From the NCBI RefSeq assembly GCF_026230195.1, contig NZ_CP036501.1, forward strand, positions 1,984,001 to 2,048,000: DNA of 64,000 nucleotides, written 5' to 3'. The DNA is from Candidatus Paraluminiphilus aquimaris (GTDB lineage Bacteria; Pseudomonadota; Gammaproteobacteria; Pseudomonadales; Halieaceae). This document shows positions 41,494-52,821 of this stretch, in pieces; position 1 is the stretch's first letter, and every line of letters begins with the position of its first letter. The notes beneath the pieces are model-generated. The model was given only the letters and a program-made list of their open reading frames with translations, did no database searches and had not been told where the DNA came from. The position numbers were made by a program, and so were the translations under genes.

Positions 41494-42936
41494 TTAGTCA
41501 CTCGACGATTCGTTTATGCGCGATAGGGTTGCGGTCGTCGAATGACCCTCAAGAAAATCCAGAATAATGACTTCGCCACCCGTGGCGATGACATGTTCAT
41601 GCCCTGCGATGTCAGCGACGGCGTAGTCTCCCCCTTTAACCAAGACATCTGGTGAAACTGCCTCTATCAAACGCGCAGGCGTATCTTCAGTAAACGGCAC
41701 GACGTAGGAAACCGACCTGAGGCCCGCTAACACCTCCATGCGCGCGCTCAACGCGTTTACTGGCCGCTCTGGGCCTTTTAAACGGGACACCGAGGCATCG
41801 TCGTTGACCGCAACGATCAACACATCACCGAGCGCTGAAGCGGACTCTAGATAGCTAACGTGCCCTGGATGAAGAAGGTCAAAACAGCCGTTCGTCATAA
41901 CCACACGTTGATTGTTAGCTTTGATTTGCGACAGCGCCGCCAACAACGAAGTCTCGTCGACAACACCAAAATCCGGCGGCACGTTAACGACGGACTCGCC
42001 ATTTGCCGCAAGCGCCAATTCATCACGAGATATGGATGCAGTTCCCACCTTACCAACAACCAACCCCGCGGCAATGTTGGCAAGTCGCGTTGCATGCTCG
42101 AGAGAGGTTTGACTGGCAATACCCGCTGCAACCGCCGAAATAACCGTATCGCCCGCCCCCGTTACATCAAACACCTCTTTGGCCAGCGCGGGCAGATGCA
42201 GTGCTTCCCCCGCTCTAGGCTGGAGCGTCATGCCACGCTCGCTTCGTGTGACTAAAACGGCGTCAAACTCAAACTCCTGACAAAGCGCCCTCGCTGCCGC
42301 ACTAATTTTGGTATCTGACTGCTCGCAGGGACCCGCAACCGCCTCAAACTCCGAAAGATTAGGCGTGATCATTGTGGCACCACGGTATCGCGAGAAATCG
42401 CTACCTTTTGGATCGACAAGGCAGGGGATTTTTTGTGACCGACAGACCTCTATCAACGCCTCAACGCGGCATAAAGTGCCTTTTGCGTAATCGCTGAGCA
42501 GGACAACATCGTGTTCAGCAATAAGATTGCTTACGTATTGAATGAACATATCGTCAGCGTAGTCGTCGAAAGGGGCTTCGAAATCCATGCGAATGAGCTG
42601 CTGATTCCGGCTTAAGACCCTAAGCTTGACGATTGTTTCAGCGGCGCATGGCATCACCGACCATCTCACTCCACGGCTTTCGACAGCCCTTCGTAAAACG
42701 TTTGCGTGCTCGTCGTCACCCGCCAGGCCCGAGAGCGTGGTACTTACGCCTAAAGCAGCCAGATTCACCGCTACGTTCCCTGCACCACCGGGACGGTCGT
42801 CAACCTCACCAACATTGACAACGGGCACTGGGGCCTCCGGACTCATTCGCGTTGCGCTGCCATGCCAGAATCGATCCAACATGACATCGCCAATGACGAG
42901 GACCTTCGCCTTTCCAAAATCCGGGATATTAGCCAT
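41494..42936 (-). CDS. hldE: Bifunctional HldE: heptose 7-phosphate kinase and heptose 1-phosphate adenylyltransferase
   Basis: Two-step enzyme of ADP-heptose synthesis for LPS inner core. It has 480 residues: an N-terminal PfkB-like kinase (RPGGAGNVAVNLAALG, the anion-hole DVTGAGDTVISA) to about residue 320, and a C-terminal cytidylyltransferase-type domain with TNGCFDLLHPGHVSYLE. Its start overlaps the upstream GT9 gene stop by 8 bp. GmhA and GmhB of the same pathway lie at 46,078-47,198. Confidence 0.96.
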   Translation of the reverse strand: MANIPDFGKAKVLVIGDVMLDRFWHGSATRMSPEAPVPVVNVGEVDDRPGGAGNVAVNLAALGVSTTLSGLAGDDEHANVLRRAVESRGVRWSVMPCAAETIVKLRVLSRNQQLIRMDFEAPFDDYADDMFIQYVSNLIAEHDVVLLSDYAKGTLCRVEALIEVCRSQKIPCLVDPKGSDFSRYRGATMITPNLSEFEAVAGPCEQSDTKISAAARALCQEFEFDAVLVTRSERGMTLQPRAGEALHLPALAKEVFDVTGAGDTVISAVAAGIASQTSLEHATRLANIAAGLVVGKVGTASISRDELALAANGESVVNVPPDFGVVDETSLLAALSQIKANNQRVVMTNGCFDLLHPGHVSYLESASALGDVLIVAVNDDASVSRLKGPERPVNALSARMEVLAGLRSVSYVVPFTEDTPARLIEAVSPDVLVKGGDYAVADIAGHEHVIATGGEVIILDFLEGHSTTATLSRINESSSD

Positions 42937-43996
42937 GAACTATTTCTCTTTCCTTATCCACCTGCTGAGGTGGCACAGCCAAAACATGCTCTAAGGCATC
43001 CAACACCTCCGATGGGACTAACGCAGCCATGCAAGTAAACGCGCCACCACAACTCGGCCGTCGCTTACAGGGCGCACAGTCTAGATCGTGGTAAATCACA
43101 CGGACATTATTGCGCTCTGTTTCCGTGTAGGGACAGGTAGACCCAAAAAGCGCCACCGTTGGTACCCCTGCAGCAACTCCCATATGCGTAAGGCCGGTAT
43201 CGACTCCGATAACTGCTCTGGCCTTACTGACCAAGCTCGCACTGACACCCAAAGGGTGGGTCCCCACCCAACTTTCTGCGTTCAGCCCTTTGAGCATTTC
43301 GGCCGCCTCGGCACGATCCGCAGGTCCTCCAAGGCAGGCCACTTTATGTCCCTGAGCAACCAGTGTCTGAATGAGGGAGCGCCAGTGCGCCCTCGTCCAA
43401 TGCTTCTGAGGTCGCGTGGTAAAGGGCGCTACTGCGATATAGCTCATTGGCGCGGCAATCGCCTCAGCTCTTGATTGATCTTCATCCGTCACGCCAAGAA
43501 CCATCTTAAATTCCTGAGTATCCCAACCCAGTTCTTCGGCTAACCCAAGGTATTCTGAGCTGATTCTGGACGTTATTTGCTTGGGGTATCGTTGGGTGAG
43601 CAACAGTCCATTAGGCTCCTTTGAATGAAAGCCAACGCGCTGGGAGCTACCCGTCAGCCAGGCCAAAAAAGCACTTTTTAGCAAACCCTGTGCGTCTACC
43701 ACCAGGTCGTAATCTCTCGATCGAAGTTCTCGCCTGAAACCGGTAATGGCCTTAAAAAGCGCTACTAGGCGCTTCTCTTCCCAAAGCGCTCGCCATTCTT
43801 GGCGTGGCCAGAGAATAACGCGTCCAATAGACGGCATACCTACGAGTAGCGGCCGTACCACGCCCTCTGCTAACCAGTCGATTTCAGCATCTGGAAATTG
43901 ACGTTTACAGGCTTCAACCAATGGCGACGCAAACACCACATCGCCGATTGCACTAAGACGGATGATCAGAACACGCTTTGGGGAAGATACTGACAT
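42929..43996 (-). CDS. Glycosyltransferase family 9, heptosyltransferase-like
   Basis: Adds heptose to LPS inner core (WaaC/WaaF family, GT9). It has 355 residues: GDVVFASPLVEACKRQFPDAE start, and VIGVDTGLTHMGVAAGVPTVALFG donor-binding region. The short distance to hldE (8-bp overlap) and a ligase just upstream fit an LPS-core operon. Whether it is heptosyltransferase I or II I cannot settle. Confidence 0.9.
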   Translation of the reverse strand: MSVSSPKRVLIIRLSAIGDVVFASPLVEACKRQFPDAEIDWLAEGVVRPLLVGMPSIGRVILWPRQEWRALWEEKRLVALFKAITGFRRELRSRDYDLVVDAQGLLKSAFLAWLTGSSQRVGFHSKEPNGLLLTQRYPKQITSRISSEYLGLAEELGWDTQEFKMVLGVTDEDQSRAEAIAAPMSYIAVAPFTTRPQKHWTRAHWRSLIQTLVAQGHKVACLGGPADRAEAAEMLKGLNAESWVGTHPLGVSASLVSKARAVIGVDTGLTHMGVAAGVPTVALFGSTCPYTETERNNVRVIYHDLDCAPCKRRPSCGGAFTCMAALVPSEVLDALEHVLAVPPQQVDKEREIVHG

Positions 43997-44003
43997 TGTC
44001 GAA

Positions 44004-45221
44004 TCAATCGGGAGCGATAACCGGCGGCTTCACGGGGTATGAGCAGTCTCTGTCCAAGGCAATAAGCAGTGTGAAGGTGAGAAAAATCAGATTGCCGCCA
44101 ATATAACTGTAAATACCGACGGCGGTCCCAATGGGAAATATTGCGAGTATCGCCACTAAGCCCGCAACGGCCACGGGCATCCGCTCATCCATCAGGTAGC
44201 CCCAGAGAAAATAAAGCAACAGACCGTAGCCTACTAACCCCACAACACCCGTTTCTGCCATGATTTCGAGCAACGTAAGATGTGGGTGCCACGTCTCAGA
44301 TACCCCTGTCCCGAGGAATATTTCCTGTCCCACAGCAAAGGTACCAAAACCTCTCATACCAACGCCGGTAAACCAATGTTCCTTGAACGCTATCCAGGCA
44401 CTCTCCCACAACTGGGGTTGATATAAGATCGATTGGTAACGGGCCGGTGCTTCCGCGATCGTGCTCACTTGTCCCGTTACAATCGACAAGTATGAGCCTA
44501 TGAGCAACCCAATAATTCCGGAGACAACAAAACCTGTAATTTGTCGTTTAGCGCCGACTTCGGGGTGCCGTAATGCCAGCACCGCCCACGCCGCAAGGCC
44601 AATTAATGCGAGCACGGCCGAGGACTGATGGCTGCTCATGACAATGGCGGCGTAGACTGGCAAGGAAAGAATTCCAATACCAATCCCACCGGCTCGTCGC
44701 AGCGCCTCCAAAAAGAAAGGCGACAGAATGGCGATGGTCGCACCGTAGCCCAGCTGCAGCGAGCCGGTTACCACCGCGCCAGATTCCCCTAACTCTATCA
44801 GTGGGTCGCCCAACAGACTTACCCCTGTCAATAACTGGATAAAGCCATCAATTGCCCACGCTACGAGCAAAATACCCAGCCAGGACATGATTTGTTTTGC
44901 ATCGCCCTCTTCTAGCTTTGCGCTGAGTACAACCCAGGCAGCAAAGCCGTAAGCTGCAAAACGGAAAGCCGCGGATAGACCACGATCCGGATTGACCGAC
45001 ATGATGAGACTAATAAAACCCGGTATCGCTATACACGAAAACAGTAACGCGGCGCGCTTCATGCCCTCTGTCGATACGACCGCCTTACGGTCGGTCAACA
45101 AGCCACCCAGGGTCACCACCACCATAAGCCAGATCAACTGGCGCGTAGCGACACTCACAGCGAGCGAGAAAAATAAAAACACCCACATTAGCGGGGCTGG
45201 AATCAACGTTTGCTGCGGCAT
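44004..45221 (-). CDS. O-antigen ligase family membrane protein
   Basis: Polytopic membrane protein of 405 residues from ATG 45221 with about 10-12 hydrophobic helices. The Wzy_C-type signature HLTLLEIMAETGVVGLVGYG is present near residue 310. Members either ligate O-antigen to lipid A-core (WaaL) or polymerise it (Wzy); adjacency to the core heptosyltransferase and hldE favours a ligase. The gap to the GT9 gene is 7 bp. Confidence 0.82.
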   Translation of the reverse strand: MPQQTLIPAPLMWVFLFFSLAVSVATRQLIWLMVVVTLGGLLTDRKAVVSTEGMKRAALLFSCIAIPGFISLIMSVNPDRGLSAAFRFAAYGFAAWVVLSAKLEEGDAKQIMSWLGILLVAWAIDGFIQLLTGVSLLGDPLIELGESGAVVTGSLQLGYGATIAILSPFFLEALRRAGGIGIGILSLPVYAAIVMSSHQSSAVLALIGLAAWAVLALRHPEVGAKRQITGFVVSGIIGLLIGSYLSIVTGQVSTIAEAPARYQSILYQPQLWESAWIAFKEHWFTGVGMRGFGTFAVGQEIFLGTGVSETWHPHLTLLEIMAETGVVGLVGYGLLLYFLWGYLMDERMPVAVAGLVAILAIFPIGTAVGIYSYIGGNLIFLTFTLLIALDRDCSYPVKPPVIAPD

Positions 45222-45369
45222 TATTGTGACTATTGGGCTGCTTTGAGTTCCGTGGATACGTTCTCGAGAGTAACGAAATGCATAGCCCAACTCCAGCTAA
45301 CACCCGTTAATAAGCGGAAAATCAACAATTTAACTTGCACCGTTCATCGACAGCGTGTTTCATCGCCAC

Positions 45370-46020
45370 ATGCTGTTATCACATCGAAAGAAATTCTTAT
45401 TTATCCACATAGCTAAGACCGGTGGGACCAGCGTCCGCTCAGCACTGCAGAAGTATCGATGGCGCGACCCCTACTATGCGCCGATTTGGCTCGCAAGTAA
45501 GCTAAGCGGAATGGCAAACCACGAACTGGCGATCAAGTTGCCTCGGCACTCAAAGGCCATTGCGGCCAAAGAAATGCTTCCCCGCGAGTTCTATGAGTCG
45601 CTGTTTAAGTTTGCGTTTGTTCGCAACCCCTGGGACTTACAAGTCAGCTCTTACCATCACATTCGGCGTGAGCGACCTCAGCTTATGAGGCCGAACGAGA
45701 GCTTTGCTGAATTTCTCTACCGCAAATTTGATCCCGATCGCGAGTGGCAGTATCACCTCGATACGTCGATAACGCCGCAGTCGAATTATCTGGTGGACCT
45801 AAACGGCGACTTGATTGTCGATTTTATTGGGCACTATGAAACGCTTCAGCAGGACTTTGACCATTGCTGCAAGACCATTGGCATTCCTAGGATAGAACTT
45901 CCCCACAAGCGCAAAGCAGGCGATCGCCTTGCTTACCGTGAGTACTACACGCCGGAGACACAAGCGCTTATAGAAAAGGTGTTTGCCCGTGATATCGAAC
46001 TATTGGGGTACAGTTTTTAA
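45370..46020 (+). CDS. Sulfotransferase family 2-like protein
   Basis: Probable carbohydrate sulfotransferase of 216 residues. The PAPS 5'-phosphate loop IHIAKTGGTSVR and the 3'-phosphate motif FVRNPWDLQVSSY are visible. I use ATG 45370; GTG 45355 is an alternative, and neither has a strong ribosome-binding site. It sits between the LPS ligase (divergent) and gmhB (convergent), so sulfation of LPS or exopolysaccharide is the natural hypothesis. Confidence 0.83.
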   Translation: MLLSHRKKFLFIHIAKTGGTSVRSALQKYRWRDPYYAPIWLASKLSGMANHELAIKLPRHSKAIAAKEMLPREFYESLFKFAFVRNPWDLQVSSYHHIRRERPQLMRPNESFAEFLYRKFDPDREWQYHLDTSITPQSNYLVDLNGDLIVDFIGHYETLQQDFDHCCKTIGIPRIELPHKRKAGDRLAYREYYTPETQALIEKVFARDIELLGYSF

Positions 46021-46077
46021 CCGCTATGCTATTGCACTCTCACAGAGCAGTGAGGCGATCGACAGATACTTCCTTTA

Positions 46078-46620
46078 CTACTTAAGGCCCGCCCGCACCA
46101 TCTCTGCCGCCTGAAGAAGCCCCGCTGCCTTGGTAGCGCCGTCATGCGCAGCACCGCTTGTCACGTGGAAACGATATGGTACTGCGGCGCGCTGGGCGGC
46201 AACCATATCCGACACCTTGTCCCCAACCATAATGGATCGGGACAGATCGAGGTCGTGTTCCTGAGCCGCCAAGAGCAACATGCCGGGTTCGGGCTTTCGC
46301 AAAACCGACTCAACCCGATAAGGCTCACTTTCTGCATCGGCTAAGTAGGGGCAGTAGTAGACCGCCGATAGATCAACGCCTCTGCTCGACAGATCCTCTT
46401 TCATCGATTGCGTGAGCCTGAGGAAGTCTTCCTCAGTGTAGTACCCTCTCGCAATACCCGACTGATTCGTAACAACTACGAGCTTAAAACCTAAGTTCTG
46501 CAGCAAAATTAAGCCGTCGATTGCATCCGGCAGGTATTCAAAATCCTCCCAGCATCCAACGTAACCGGAGTCCACGTTGATAACTCCATCCCTATCGAGA
46601 AAGGCTGCCGGCGTAGCCAT
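46078..46620 (-). CDS. gmhB: D-glycero-beta-D-manno-heptose 1,7-bisphosphate 7-phosphatase
   Basis: HAD phosphatase removing the 7-phosphate in ADP-heptose synthesis. It has 180 residues with the nucleophile motif FLDRDGVIN (Asp9, Asp11), TNQSGIARGYY and RKPEPGML. Typical GmhB has a zinc loop of Cys/His residues before RKP; here only one Cys is seen (YYCPYLADAESEPY...), so the zinc site seems lost. The position 2 bp after gmhA supports the call. Confidence 0.93.
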   Translation of the reverse strand: MATPAAFLDRDGVINVDSGYVGCWEDFEYLPDAIDGLILLQNLGFKLVVVTNQSGIARGYYTEEDFLRLTQSMKEDLSSRGVDLSAVYYCPYLADAESEPYRVESVLRKPEPGMLLLAAQEHDLDLSRSIMVGDKVSDMVAAQRAAVPYRFHVTSGAAHDGATKAAGLLQAAEMVRAGLK

Positions 46621-46622
46621 GA

Positions 46623-47198
46623 CTAGACGTCGTCGAGCTCAAGACGATGTTCGATCAGGGCGCACAGTAAATGTCCCACCACAATGTGCATTTCTTGTAT
46701 GCGCGCAGTGACGTCAGAGGGCACAACAAGCGACAGATCAGCCACACGGTGAAGCTCACCGCCCGATTTACCCGACAAACCAATCGCCAGTACCCCGCTC
46801 TTCTGCGCTGACTCCACCGCATTGAGAATATTCATTGAATTCCCGGAAGTAGAGATCGCAAGTAAGACGTCTCCCGGCTGAGCAAGGCCCTCCACCTGCC
46901 GACTGAAAACATGGTCGTACCCGTAGTCATTACCAATAGCCGTGAGCGCCGAAGTGTCAGTCGTCAGGGCAATGGCCGGAAGCGAGCGCCGATCTGAAAC
47001 GAAACGCCCGATCAACTCAGCGGCTATGTGCTGTGCGTCCGCCGCAGAACCCCCGTTGCCGCAAAGATAAATGCGTTTACCTGCGCGCAACGCTTCAGCA
47101 CAGATCTCACCCGCTTGAGCAATATCATCCTCTAGCACACTCATGGCCTGAGCGACCGAAATGTGTTCTTCTAATGTACTGCGGACTATATGCTGCAC
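46623..47198 (-). CDS. gmhA: Phosphoheptose isomerase GmhA
   Basis: Converts sedoheptulose 7-phosphate to D-glycero-D-manno-heptose 7-phosphate, the first step of ADP-heptose synthesis. It has 191 residues with one SIS domain (GNGGSAADAQHIAAELIGRF, LLAISTSGNS). DiaA-like proteins are close relatives; the adjacent gmhB supports GmhA. Confidence 0.92.
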   Translation of the reverse strand: MQHIVRSTLEEHISVAQAMSVLEDDIAQAGEICAEALRAGKRIYLCGNGGSAADAQHIAAELIGRFVSDRRSLPAIALTTDTSALTAIGNDYGYDHVFSRQVEGLAQPGDVLLAISTSGNSMNILNAVESAQKSGVLAIGLSGKSGGELHRVADLSLVVPSDVTARIQEMHIVVGHLLCALIEHRLELDDV

Positions 47199-49937: not shown

Positions 49938-50963
49938 GTGCAAAGCGATTCAAATTTAGCTCTGAGTTCTCGTCTCTCGATCGGGGATTACATTCCTCAT
50001 GCGTTGATCGAGACAACTGAGCAACGCCTTGATATTCAGAGCAAAGCTGGCGAGCCTAATATTTTTGTGGTTCTGAGCGAGGCGCACGGCGCCCTTGCAC
50101 CTCAGGCACTAGGGCTCGCTTTTCCGTATCGTCATTTTGTGCTCACCGAAACAGCATCGGATTCGACCCAACATAAGCGTGTTTTTTCAAGTGCGGCTCT
50201 CTGCCGTCTCTTCCTGCACCCCTTAGTCCCGATCAGTGCTTTTGTCACCGACGCGAATCTCAAAATTGTTGACTACGTGGACGCTCAAAACCTTAACGAG
50301 TTGCAGGCCGAGTTGACAGAGATTCGGGTACCTACCCTCAACCTGCCTGCGCCGGTACTGGTTATTCCAAATGCGATCGACGAAGCGCTAGCAGAAGATC
50401 TCATGCGCTACGTCGACAACCACCAGGAGGCTGGCTTCGTTGCCGATCAGGACTTCAAGCGACGGTTACACATTCACCCAGATAGGGACCTTGAATATCG
50501 ATTAGACGACAAGCTATGCAAGTCGGTTTTACCTGAGATTGAAAAAGTTTTTTATTCAGAAATCACGCACAGAGAAACGTACAAAATCTGCCGCTATGAT
50601 GGCGCAAACAGCGGGAAGTTTGGAAAGCACCGGGACACAATTGCGCCACATCTGCATCGGCGGTATGCCATCACACTGGTGCTTAACGATGACTATGAAG
50701 GAGGTGGAATCGCCTTCCCTGAGTACAACTCAGACGTACTTTCGGTGCCAAAGTACGGAGCTGTAGTGTTCCCCGGTGCTTTGTTTCATCAAGTTGACGA
50801 GATCGCCTCTGGCAGCCGATACGTCATCATTAGTTTTTTCTTCGGAGAGGCAGAAGCGGCAGTAAAGGAAGACAGCGAACGATACCGGTTTACCGTTAAA
50901 CGACGTGTTGAGGGTTTGACACTGACCTCGTTAATGCCCAATCAGTCAAAGCCCGCCCCGTAG
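49938..50963 (+). CDS. 2-oxoglutarate/Fe(II) oxygenase, prolyl-4-hydroxylase-like, with thioredoxin-like N-domain
   Basis: Two-domain protein of 341 residues starting at GTG 49938. The N-terminal part (about 10-130) resembles the redoxin-like domain fused to some bacterial 2OG oxygenases; it has no CxxC. The C-terminal part (about 140-305) is a P4Hc-type double-stranded beta helix: metal triad His231-x-Asp233 and His284, and Arg294 for the 2OG carboxylate (KHRDT, LFHQV, SGSRYV). The substrate is unknown. It converges with the FkbM-GT60 gene, and the pairing is discussed as a finding. The haloalkane dehalogenase diverges from it across 60 bp. Confidence 0.86.
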   Translation: MQSDSNLALSSRLSIGDYIPHALIETTEQRLDIQSKAGEPNIFVVLSEAHGALAPQALGLAFPYRHFVLTETASDSTQHKRVFSSAALCRLFLHPLVPISAFVTDANLKIVDYVDAQNLNELQAELTEIRVPTLNLPAPVLVIPNAIDEALAEDLMRYVDNHQEAGFVADQDFKRRLHIHPDRDLEYRLDDKLCKSVLPEIEKVFYSEITHRETYKICRYDGANSGKFGKHRDTIAPHLHRRYAITLVLNDDYEGGGIAFPEYNSDVLSVPKYGAVVFPGALFHQVDEIASGSRYVIISFFFGEAEAAVKEDSERYRFTVKRRVEGLTLTSLMPNQSKPAP

Positions 50964-51075
50964 CTCACTTTACCTCTTGCAACTTAGCTTCGTGTGGGCC
51001 TCCCAGGAGGCTTCCTCGAGTCAGATCCGCTGATGGCTGTCAGCACTTGGGCTTTATTGACGAGGACTTGCGGAG

Positions 51076-52779
51076 CTATTCGTCGCGGTACAGATAGTTC
51101 GGGAAGGTCTCCTTCAGCTGATCGTGAATGCCTGCATAGCGGTAGTAATCCAGAAGCGTACGTTCATCACCAAGACCATACCGCTGGATGCACTCTGCCA
51201 AGGAATCTTGGTATACCAAATCCACCTGCTCTCGCGTATCTAAGCCCAAGAGGAACTTTGCTTTCGACCAAGAAGCTTGTGGCCAGCCAGCGCGATTTGA
51301 GTTGCTGATGCGCTTGACCTCGTCGGGAATACGATCGCGCGAGCCCTCATAATCAGTCGCCAGGGCGTGGCGTGTCGGACAGAAGATGTCGTAGCCATGG
51401 GTCCACAATCTAACGGCATAAAGCACCTGTTCTTCGGCATGCAGACCAAAATCGAGTTCTGGGTCATAGGGAAAAAGACGACGAACCTCGCCACTCATGA
51501 AAAGCATCGCTGCACTGATTCCAAGCGATGCGATGGGTGTCTCAGGAAGCGTTACCAATGCGCCATGACTTTTAATCGAGTCGACGTCGATGTGACGATA
51601 CCGATTTACATGGCCAATTCGGTCAAGATGCTCAGGGGACTCCATATTGATGATATTCACCGGATAGTGGGAGAGAACAGCTTTGCCATTAAGACAGGAC
51701 GCTTTGGCGAGCTCTGCAATCAAAATATCATCCCACCCTCGGAAAAAGCGCGAGTGGCAATCAATTTGCAAAAAGAAATCGGCATCAAGCATAAGCTTCT
51801 CACAACGCGCTCGAGCATAGATCGGCCCTTTTGCCTCACTCACGTCAATTCGATCAACTGATACTTGCGGGAGAGCGTCTAATGCATCAAAGGCCCTATC
51901 AGTCGGCTGTGCCTGCAGACAAATACCAACCGTTACTCGGTCGGGGTTAACCGCATTTTCAAGGCAGCTTTTAACGGTATCGACGACATCCGGGTCGGAA
52001 AAGCAAGCAATTGACACGAAGATTTTTTCGGCCGATGCCGAGCTTGTTTCGCTTGCTTGAAGAACCTCGGGGGTTAACTCCACCAGATCAGTCAGTACGT
52101 GTGGCGCGGATTCAGTACGGTGATGCCCGACAACATTCGGCCCATGGCGGTATAAACGGTAGCCCAATACGTTCACTGAAAACGAGAGAATTTCTTCTTT
52201 AAATTCAGGCCGGTTGTACTCGAAGTAAAGAAAAGGACGAGTACGCTCAATCGTTGCAACAGCACCCTTTAGAACCTGTAGCTCCATGCCCTCGACGTCA
52301 ATTTTAATCAGGTGACATTGAGGAGGCGCGATGGCATCGAGCGAGATGATATCCCCCTCTTCCTTGAACGTATCAAACGACAACGAATAGCCACCAAAGT
52401 TGTTTGGACGTTCATAATTGGGGACTGGCACCTCGACCCTACCTTGCTTATCACCCACCGCTAACCGGTAGGGCCAAACGTTTTGATGCCGCCCCAACAG
52501 AGCGTTCGCGCACAATATTTGAAACAAGAAGCGCTGAGGCTCAAAGGCAAGCACACGACCCTTGACACCCACGCAGCGAGAAAAGAATAACGTGTGGTTA
52601 CCTACATTTGCCCCAACATCGACAACCGTGTCGGACTCAGATAGTAATTCACCCAGGAGCGCTTTTTCGTCAGCGGCATAATCGCCTGTCGCGCGAAGAC
52701 TTTCGCAGATAACAGTATCCGTCTCGAGAAGATACATGGGGCCGTTTACAGTCTCGTGAAGCCTTACAAGCTCGTTCAT
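51076..52779 (-). CDS. FkbM methyltransferase-GT60 (Skp1 GlcNAc-transferase-like) fusion
   Basis: Fused protein of 567 residues from ATG 52779; TTG 52791 would add four. My residue numbers count from that TTG. The N-terminal half (about 50-200) is a FkbM SAM-dependent methyltransferase: VVDVGANVGNHT at 56-67, AFEPQ at 82-86 and KIDVEGMELQVLKGA at 163-177. The C-terminal half (257-525) matches the GlcNAc domain of GT60: IFVSIACFSDPDVVDTV at 257-273, SEAKGPIYARAR at 318-329, FLQIDCHSRFFRGWD at 340-354 with a DxH-type metal site, and HAEEQVLYAVRLWTHGY at 451-467. In eukaryotes GT60 adds GlcNAc to hydroxyproline of Skp1. No signal peptide, so it is probably cytosolic. Confidence 0.86.
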   Translation of the reverse strand: MNELVRLHETVNGPMYLLETDTVICESLRATGDYAADEKALLGELLSESDTVVDVGANVGNHTLFFSRCVGVKGRVLAFEPQRFLFQILCANALLGRHQNVWPYRLAVGDKQGRVEVPVPNYERPNNFGGYSLSFDTFKEEGDIISLDAIAPPQCHLIKIDVEGMELQVLKGAVATIERTRPFLYFEYNRPEFKEEILSFSVNVLGYRLYRHGPNVVGHHRTESAPHVLTDLVELTPEVLQASETSSASAEKIFVSIACFSDPDVVDTVKSCLENAVNPDRVTVGICLQAQPTDRAFDALDALPQVSVDRIDVSEAKGPIYARARCEKLMLDADFFLQIDCHSRFFRGWDDILIAELAKASCLNGKAVLSHYPVNIINMESPEHLDRIGHVNRYRHIDVDSIKSHGALVTLPETPIASLGISAAMLFMSGEVRRLFPYDPELDFGLHAEEQVLYAVRLWTHGYDIFCPTRHALATDYEGSRDRIPDEVKRISNSNRAGWPQASWSKAKFLLGLDTREQVDLVYQDSLAECIQRYGLGDERTLLDYYRYAGIHDQLKETFPNYLYRDE

Positions 52780-52821
52780 TTCAGAGTTCAATCCTTAAGG
52801 TCCTTTGAACGGATTCAAGGG

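Follow-up and report, generated by a model that had tools for sequence, protein, structure and literature searches.

Modification of a protein by hydroxylation and subsequent glycosylation is known mainly from eukaryotes, and the form in which the sugar is transferred by a GT60 enzyme has so far been known from protist Skp1. In Dictyostelium and Toxoplasma, this cytosolic protein is hydroxylated by PhyA and then glycosylated by the GT60 transferase Gnt1 (PMC6939170, PMC7864055). GT60 and GT27 have been grouped together as families with a DxH motif instead of DxD (PMC7185993). GT60 enzymes are described from protists and are also present in prokaryotes, while prolyl hydroxylases are described from Pseudomonas and Bacillus (PMC7185993, PMC9472816, PMC6939170, PMC8724618, PMC8968730, PMC7864055). 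The bacterial 2-oxoglutarate (2OG) prolyl hydroxylases act on proteins or peptides, as do PPHD on EF-Tu and the prolyl 4-hydroxylase (P4H) of Bacillus anthracis, for neither of which do the available portions of the papers describe a GT60 partner (PMC7864055, PMC8968730). Here we analyse a 64,000-nucleotide stretch of the genome of the gammaproteobacterium Candidatus Paraluminiphilus aquimaris (the window; C1:1984001–2048000 of a 2.72-Mb single-contig genome), in which a 2OG-Fe(II) oxygenase gene lies beside a gene encoding a fusion of an FkbM methyltransferase with a GT60 glycosyltransferase. The initial annotation of this DNA knew of no described bacterial system with this set, and none was found in the available portions of the literature searched, in which subscription journals were mostly out of reach.

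We consider it fairly probable that the pair constitutes a two-step cytoplasmic modification unit for a protein or peptide, with hydroxylation followed by glycosylation. In this scheme, the oxygenase would hydroxylate a residue, most likely proline, within a segment that is exported and either Pro/Thr-rich or flexible; the GT60 domain would add an alpha-linked N-acetylhexosamine, most likely N-acetylglucosamine (GlcNAc), to the new hydroxyl or to a neighbouring Thr or Ser; and FkbM, where present, would O-methylate the sugar. We infer that the two enzymes share one polypeptide substrate here, and likewise the residue, the sugar, the order of the steps and the position of the methyl group. A cytoplasmic site is suggested by the N-termini, which are strongly hydrophobic in neither window protein.

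The locus resembles the Skp1 pathway in that a 2OG oxygenase and a GT60 transferase are linked in the window genome, but it differs in being bacterial, in having an oxygenase of redoxin-P4H/PKHD-like type, in the fusion of GT60 to FkbM and in a GT60 lineage without the metal-site His. Skp1 itself is not known from bacteria. The window protein falls in the same family as TcOGNT1, the GT60 polypeptide alpha-GlcNAc-transferase of Trypanosoma cruzi, and its nearest fold is that of the GT27 ppGalNAc-transferases. Unlike TcOGNT1 and GT27, bacterial GT60s are often fused to a methyltransferase or an oxygenase, and no ricin-type domain was found in the scanned proteins with GT60. Another parallel is the collagen lysyl hydroxylase-glycosyltransferase LH3 (PLOD3), which is the best non-PKHD Protein Data Bank (PDB) match of the window oxygenase and whose joining of two activities recurs in bacterial GT60-oxygenase fusions; in LH3, however, the modified residue is lysine, and its glycosyltransferase belongs to a different family from GT60.

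In the window, the oxygenase gene (49938–50963, plus strand; 341 aa, GTG start) converges with the FkbM-GT60 gene (51076–52791, minus strand; 571 aa, TTG start) across a gap of 112 bp. Both reading frames and their orientation had been recorded in the initial annotation, which was also right that convergent genes do not form one operon; yet in nine relatives the gene ends overlap by 4 bp (G001, G014, G017, G018, G020, G035, G063, G066 and G074), and the remaining arrangements are a 16-bp overlap in G008 and a 34-bp gap in G006. Among 57 genomes of the genus, the oxygenase has an orthologue in 12 (67–100% identity) and the GT60 in 13, comprising the same 12 (69–100%) and G075, where the match stops ~150 bases short of the contig end and the frame runs on through unrelated sequence as far as a stop; this copy is either disrupted or misassembled. 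The genes are convergent neighbours in all 12 pair-bearing genomes and occupy one synteny site as far as the contigs reach (in G008, G017 and G066 the contig is interrupted within or next to the GT60 gene, so that the far flank is off that contig, and the contig of G072 ends at the dehalogenase and is uninformative). The site is flanked by a dehalogenase-like gene and, mostly, by an M24 peptidase gene, and some genomes have additional small genes in the interval. Elsewhere in the genus, G019 is limited to a distant oxygenase (35%), and G077 to distant GT60s (33–34%). Both genes are under purifying selection, with dN/dS about 0.08–0.16 for each (three unsaturated pairs each; two further pairs were saturated), and the observation therefore exceeds chance. 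On whether the neighbourhood is conserved in any relative, which had been named beforehand as decisive, the survey revealed a pair conserved as a unit in the genus. A chance neighbourhood was rejected in view of this co-occurrence and of the recurrent fusion or adjacency of oxygenase and GT60 elsewhere. The pair is real and very probably functionally linked, and it was probably gained once within the genus.

The methyltransferase half behaves differently. FkbM is fused to GT60 in G000, G035, G063, G074 and G008 (cut by the contig end), and a fusion in G017 is deduced from two contigs, whereas the FkbM half is missing in G001, G006, G014, G018, G020 and G075. An oxygenase tree, in which five of the nine inner branches are open, forces at least three changes of this trait (G075 is not in the tree and G017 is labelled 'fused' by inference). 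With five tree genomes lacking FkbM and at least three changes, methylation is therefore accessory rather than core, and the sugar capping that the initial annotation had assigned to FkbM is not a fixed part of the system. In four relatives (L046, L047, L117 and L119), GT60 is separated from the M24 peptidase by glutathione-S-transferase-like and DUF1993-like genes, assigned by eye, neither of which is present in the window.

To place the pair in a broader context, we used a GT60 alignment search that returned 203 genomic relatives and, from the viral contigs of the IMG/VR set, at least 572 more; the loci studied were the best-scoring 80 of the 203 and the best 80 of the at least 572, and are not a random sample. 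Our home-made 2OG profiles miss some oxygenases, for example a Pfam-positive one in L386, and the fusion and adjacency counts are therefore lower bounds. At least 12 of the 80 genome loci encode a single polypeptide that contains GT60 together with all or part of a 2OG oxygenase (L153, L167, L172, L174, L175, L177, L182, L189, L197, L199, L201 and L205; L197 is counted with only a partial oxygenase, truncated where its contig stops). Of the 12, seven (L167, L172, L174, L175, L177, L182 and L189) have the same redoxin-P4H architecture as the window oxygenase, which matches all seven in phmmer (3e-28 to 9e-33). In these proteins the oxygenase follows a tandem array of three or four GT60 domains (counting a truncated one in L175), some carry a further 2OG domain, and six of the seven loci are named Alphaproteobacteria or Rickettsiales. 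Only the redoxin part was found in L187 and L198, in the latter because the contig ends. A divergent gene with a sulfotransferase-like start (LGMHRSGTS or LGMHRAGTS, by eye) precedes the giant GT60 genes in L167, L172, L174, L177, L182, L189, L197 and L198, and the upstream side of L175 is off its contig.

Oxygenases of 2OG families other than that of the window are also fused to GT60, in either order. An 875-aa protein of Kordiimonas sediminis (L199, 9263–11890) joins P4Hc, GT60 and a tubulin-tyrosine-ligase-like (TTL) ATP-grasp domain, while L201 and L153 have the order GT60-P4Hc. Unfused oxygenases adjoin GT60 in two genome loci, L187 (7 bp) and L183 (149 bp), and the home-made profiles, which miss some, detected no further oxygenases in the 1.13 Mb of the 80 genome loci. 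L183 mirrors the window layout, with a GT60-methyltransferase converging with an oxygenase and both partner domains drawn from other families; all nine PDB matches of its oxygenase bear the name prolyl 4-hydroxylase or a near equivalent (one is listed only as 'Predicted protein'), the best at 3e-20. The commonest bacterial form of GT60 carries a non-FkbM methyltransferase-type extension (51 of 80 loci, by clustering; methyltransferase identity was checked with Pfam in L092, L096, L106, L147 and L183). Through these varied fusions and adjacencies, GT60 has thus been brought together with an oxygenase and a methyltransferase several times. Across the phylum, PF11397 occurs in 28 of 398 sampled genomes, including that of the window.

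The domain assignments of the fusion protein are clear. Residues 58–212 (52156–52620, minus strand) match PF05050 (66.2 bits, cutoff 22.7) and TIGR01444 fkbM_fam (92 bits, cutoff 37.7), and residues 250–571 (51079–52044, minus strand) match PF11397 in two stretches (159.9 bits, cutoff 21), so that FkbM and a C-terminal GT60 domain are joined in one protein as originally described. This protein is the sole PF11397 match in its own genome (E ≤ 0.001), and none of 14 control genomes had a match. In a profile comparison with the PDB, the sole glycosyltransferase matched by the GT60 domain was a ppGalNAc-transferase (2e-4). An AlphaFold2 model of the domain (predicted local distance difference test score, pLDDT, 85; predicted TM-score, pTM, 0.87) is nearest to the polypeptide GalNAc-transferases, which occupy ranks 1–29 (Z 19.7–22.1, 263–290 residues at 3.7–4.3 Å) ahead of chondroitin polymerase (Z 16.7). 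As modelled, the GT60 domain is a GT-A fold close to GT27, in agreement with the grouping of GT60 and GT27 by the DxH motif (PMC7185993). Asp344-Cys345-His346 (51754–51762, minus strand) supplies this motif in place of DxD; its Asp and His do not vary among the 11 genus rows covering the motif, and all 32 of the 32 aligned GT60s have them. An unrelated GT2 identity, raised in the initial annotation as the outcome that would speak against its proposal, was rejected because PF11397 dominates; the profile's one glycosyltransferase match and the nearest folds of the model, all ppGalNAc-transferases, agree with GT60.

The N-terminal third of the oxygenase (approximately residues 14–135; 49977–50342, plus strand) is a peroxiredoxin/thioredoxin-like domain, which had been overlooked. 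Its profile matches include the peroxiredoxins 3drn (6e-6), 2ywn and 3hjp; its single cysteine is Cys89, and by eye there is none at the expected place of the peroxidatic Cys. A P4Hc/PKHD-like double-stranded beta-helix domain, assigned from sequence and profile matches and weak model matches, spans approximately residues 140–316 (50355–50885). The active-site residues had been identified correctly: the iron-ligand HxD motif His231-Arg232-Asp233 (50628–50636), the third iron ligand His284 (50787–50789) and Arg294 (50817–50819), the expected 2OG-binding Arg, all on the plus strand, are present, and His231, Asp233, His284 and Arg294 are invariant in 12 of 12 genus orthologues and in all rows of an 8-row alignment with distant relatives. 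The protein accordingly has the HxD...H ligands and the 2OG-binding basic residue of P4H/PKHD-type enzymes. Of the domain searches proposed at the outset, those for PF11397 and PF05050 thus exceeded their cutoffs, whereas that for a 2OG oxygenase gave no Pfam match at E ≤ 0.1, neither PF13640 nor an NCBIfam equivalog being assigned, and PKHD models matched weakly (NF003974, 3.1e-9, 36.7 bits against a cutoff of 143). The two fused relatives that were scanned, L182 and L189, do exceed the PF13640 cutoff. PDB sequence matches were PiuC, LH3 and another PKHD protein; by profile, the C-terminal part matched LH3 (3e-6), PiuC, a prolyl 3-hydroxylase and, more weakly, prolyl 4-hydroxylases. A structural model of the oxygenase was of low quality (pLDDT 57.5), and its Foldseek matches to PHD2, LH3 and a bacterial prolyl hydroxylase lend weak support.

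Candidate substrates are visible at other bacterial GT60 loci. Proteins with tandem Pro/Thr repeats (DTPAPT, ATTEP, EPPVTT, PTTTGA and TPAPT, for example) are often encoded beside GT60 genes, and these repeats may resemble mucin-type acceptors. Open reading frames (ORFs) with such repeats occur within 500 bp of GT60 in 17 of 80 loci (75 kb examined) and beyond 2 kb in 4 of 80 (681 kb; L152, L170, L201 and L205, with L152 and L205 counted in both groups). The repeat criterion was fixed but chosen after the first cases had been seen, and the loci are not independent, with several from the same genus or order; the binomial p of 3.5e-14 therefore overstates the enrichment. Three oxygenase-fused loci have a Pro/Thr-repeat ORF nearby: L201 encodes a two-partner exoprotein with a PTPEP tail, 2.2 kb from GT60 and behind its ShlB-type transporter; L205 encodes, at a distance of 155 bp, an RTX-like protein that carries 13 PEPTP units, and also a paralogue whose repeats are GPTGET; and in L153 an ORF with PPPSTTTVV repeats, truncated where the contig stops, lies 243 bp from the second GT60 of the locus. 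Large RTX/adhesin-like proteins were also recognised by eye at L184 (Methylophaga), L185 and L202, the L184 neighbour having RTX and Calx-beta.

The congener G077 (one contig) lacks the window pair and has a one-strand cluster with two GT60s (L386, 4548–15412), whose genes encode in order a DUF5672-sulfotransferase, a GT60, a 124-aa protein with a Pro/Thr-rich tail, a PqqD-domain protein, a 204-aa protein without a match, a protein with a sub-threshold O-FucT match, a 2OG-FeII_Oxy_3 protein, a second PqqD-domain protein, a GT60 and a methyltransferase; three gene junctions overlap by 4 bp. The 124-aa protein has a twin-arginine-like segment, recognised by eye, ahead of its tail and is apparently exported by the Tat route. 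The oxygenase (61.8 bits for 2OG-FeII_Oxy_3) has a prolyl 4-hydroxylase alpha subunit as its best PDB match (2.7e-8). Similarly, a small ORF in L191 with a twin-arginine-like start and a Thr/Pro tail lies 85 bp before a GT60-PqqD-HprK-like protein. Judged from their gene content, L386 and L191 together give the clearest sign that GT60, oxygenase and methyltransferase may act on an exported Pro/Thr-rich peptide. In G019, the genomic site of the pair holds another hydroxylase and transferase cassette (L055, 935–8984). Besides a redoxin-P4H and a further redoxin-like protein, recognised by eye, it encodes an AMP-ligase/carrier protein, a Cupin_8/JmjC protein and a protein whose O-FucT match is sub-threshold.

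Several observations weigh against a two-step protein modification by the window pair. In the window GT60 lineage, Thr replaces the third metal-site His (C-His), a residue conserved though not universal in GT60 and found in 30 of 32 aligned sequences (the L199 row has Gln), and the His-Trp..Asp loop is missing. This argues against complete equivalence to the ppGalNAc-transferases, and we treat the window protein as a divergent GT60 homologue. The link between the two enzymes also has gaps. Redoxin-P4H relatives at 30–37% identity (L055, L056, L374, L375 and L376) have no GT60 in the surrounding 9–19 kb retrieved, weaker oxygenase matches (L042–L045) have none in their 3–4 kb, and across 369 genomes of the class the oxygenase and GT60 relatives outside the window lie in different genomes (3 and 3). 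Substrates were likewise not found at home: the window and the 13 genus loci scanned have no Pro/Thr-repeat ORF, no PT-repeat family exceeds its cutoff in the genome, and a search for two-partner secretion (TPS) proteins gave no match there but matched no control genome either, so that absence is not implied. Two large RTX-type open frames of 2051 and 2109 aa lie at L383 (C1 2440001–2456000), and no Pro/Thr repeats occur in the part of them that was fetched. The two-step protein modification suggested in the initial annotation is nevertheless the best reading, with proline as its probable target; no substrate was found beside the pair.

An unlikely though serious alternative is that the enzymes share a protein substrate by a route other than hydroxyproline, the oxygenase hydroxylating lysine or another residue, or GT60 acting on Thr/Ser independently. 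The sequence of the window oxygenase is indeed nearer to the lysyl hydroxylase LH3 and to PKHD proteins, its best PDB matches, than to prolyl 4-hydroxylases. Moreover, a fused oxygenase is absent from 16 of the 17 GT60 loci that have a Pro/Thr-repeat ORF no more than 500 bp away; at those loci the repeats are probably modified by GT60 without prior hydroxylation, so that only a subset needs the oxygenase; a Thr GlcNAc-transferase is among the characterised GT60 enzymes (PMC9472816). Against this, both GT60-linked oxygenases of other families that were tested alone (L386 and L183) have prolyl 4-hydroxylases as best matches, and the repeats beside the three oxygenase-fused GT60s (PTPEP, PEPTP and PPPSTTTVV) are Pro-rich, with no Lys in the stretches inspected.

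Genes of heptose/lipopolysaccharide (LPS)-core type stand beside the pair at 41494–47198 of the window, namely a PfkB-cytidylyltransferase, a GT9 heptosyltransferase and an O-antigen-ligase-like gene in conserved synteny, accompanied by GmhA/GmhB-like genes (by eye) and a sulfotransferase gene. Their distance of ~3–8 kb would suit an action of both enzymes on a surface glycan or lipid, which the initial annotation had named as the alternative and which we regard as improbable. These genes are syntenic background, present in part in G019 without the pair, and they lie outside any transcription unit shared with it; the proposal that they define its function was rejected for the former reason. 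In addition, the nearest folds of the GT60 model are polypeptide transferases, and elsewhere GT60 often abuts repeat proteins (glycan loci around GT60 were not surveyed). Less probable still is that the oxygenase makes a small hydroxylated metabolite and came to be linked to GT60 by chance, through common inheritance of a single locus. The probable single gain within the genus, whose conservation may then be one event, and the distant redoxin-P4H relatives that are not beside GT60 would fit such an accident, but the same oxygenase type is fused to GT60 in the seven loci named above, six of which carry the names Alphaproteobacteria or Rickettsiales, and other 2OG families are fused to it in either order.

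Taken together, a two-step modification of a polypeptide remains our preferred account of the pair, and some bacteria probably decorate proteins by a hydroxylate-then-glycosylate route. The pair belongs to a broader and apparently undescribed bacterial class of GT60-centred polypeptide modification. We advance more tentatively, as a proposal about as open to doubt as to belief, that bacteria and many IMG/VR viruses run a eukaryote-like O-glycosylation of mucin/extensin type, in which GT60s, being related to animal polypeptide GalNAc-transferases and to the protist Skp1 enzyme, would act on Pro/Thr repeats carried by two-partner exoproteins, adhesins, RTX proteins of collagen-like type and viral proteins, a subset would employ prolyl-hydroxylase-type oxygenases, fused or linked to GT60, making hydroxyproline anchors and fused methyltransferases capping the sugar, and the window pair would be one member. 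A bacterial equivalent of the Skp1 route, with candidate substrates in view, would imply that hydroxylation-GT60 chemistry is shared across domains, and would offer small genetic systems for mucin- and extensin-like O-glycosylation. It would also supply polypeptide O-glycosyltransferases and hydroxylases suited to the bacterial cytoplasm, and would suggest a function for a PF11397 domain family found in those 28 phylum genomes and at least 572 viral stretches.

Pro/Thr-repeat ORFs were found at 25 of 80 viral GT60 loci (1.29 Mb) versus 5 of 80 viral oxygenase loci (0.79 Mb), and at least one of the 80 viral GT60 loci has a GT60-P4Hc fusion (L207, a 4771-base contig). A viral scan with the oxygenase alignment gave weak, partial P4Hc-like matches, the best at 9e-13. 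Repeat proteins of SVTPS/TPTIS/TPSVT type adjoin viral GT60 genes in L214, L224, L244, L270 and other viral loci. The extensions of viral GT60s include one cluster of 87 C-terminal segments (113 aa in one example). Among 50,697 annotated phage records, three have a GT60 relative (L201 query, E ≤ 1e-5): Xanthomonas phage XacN1 and two Stenotrophomonas phages.

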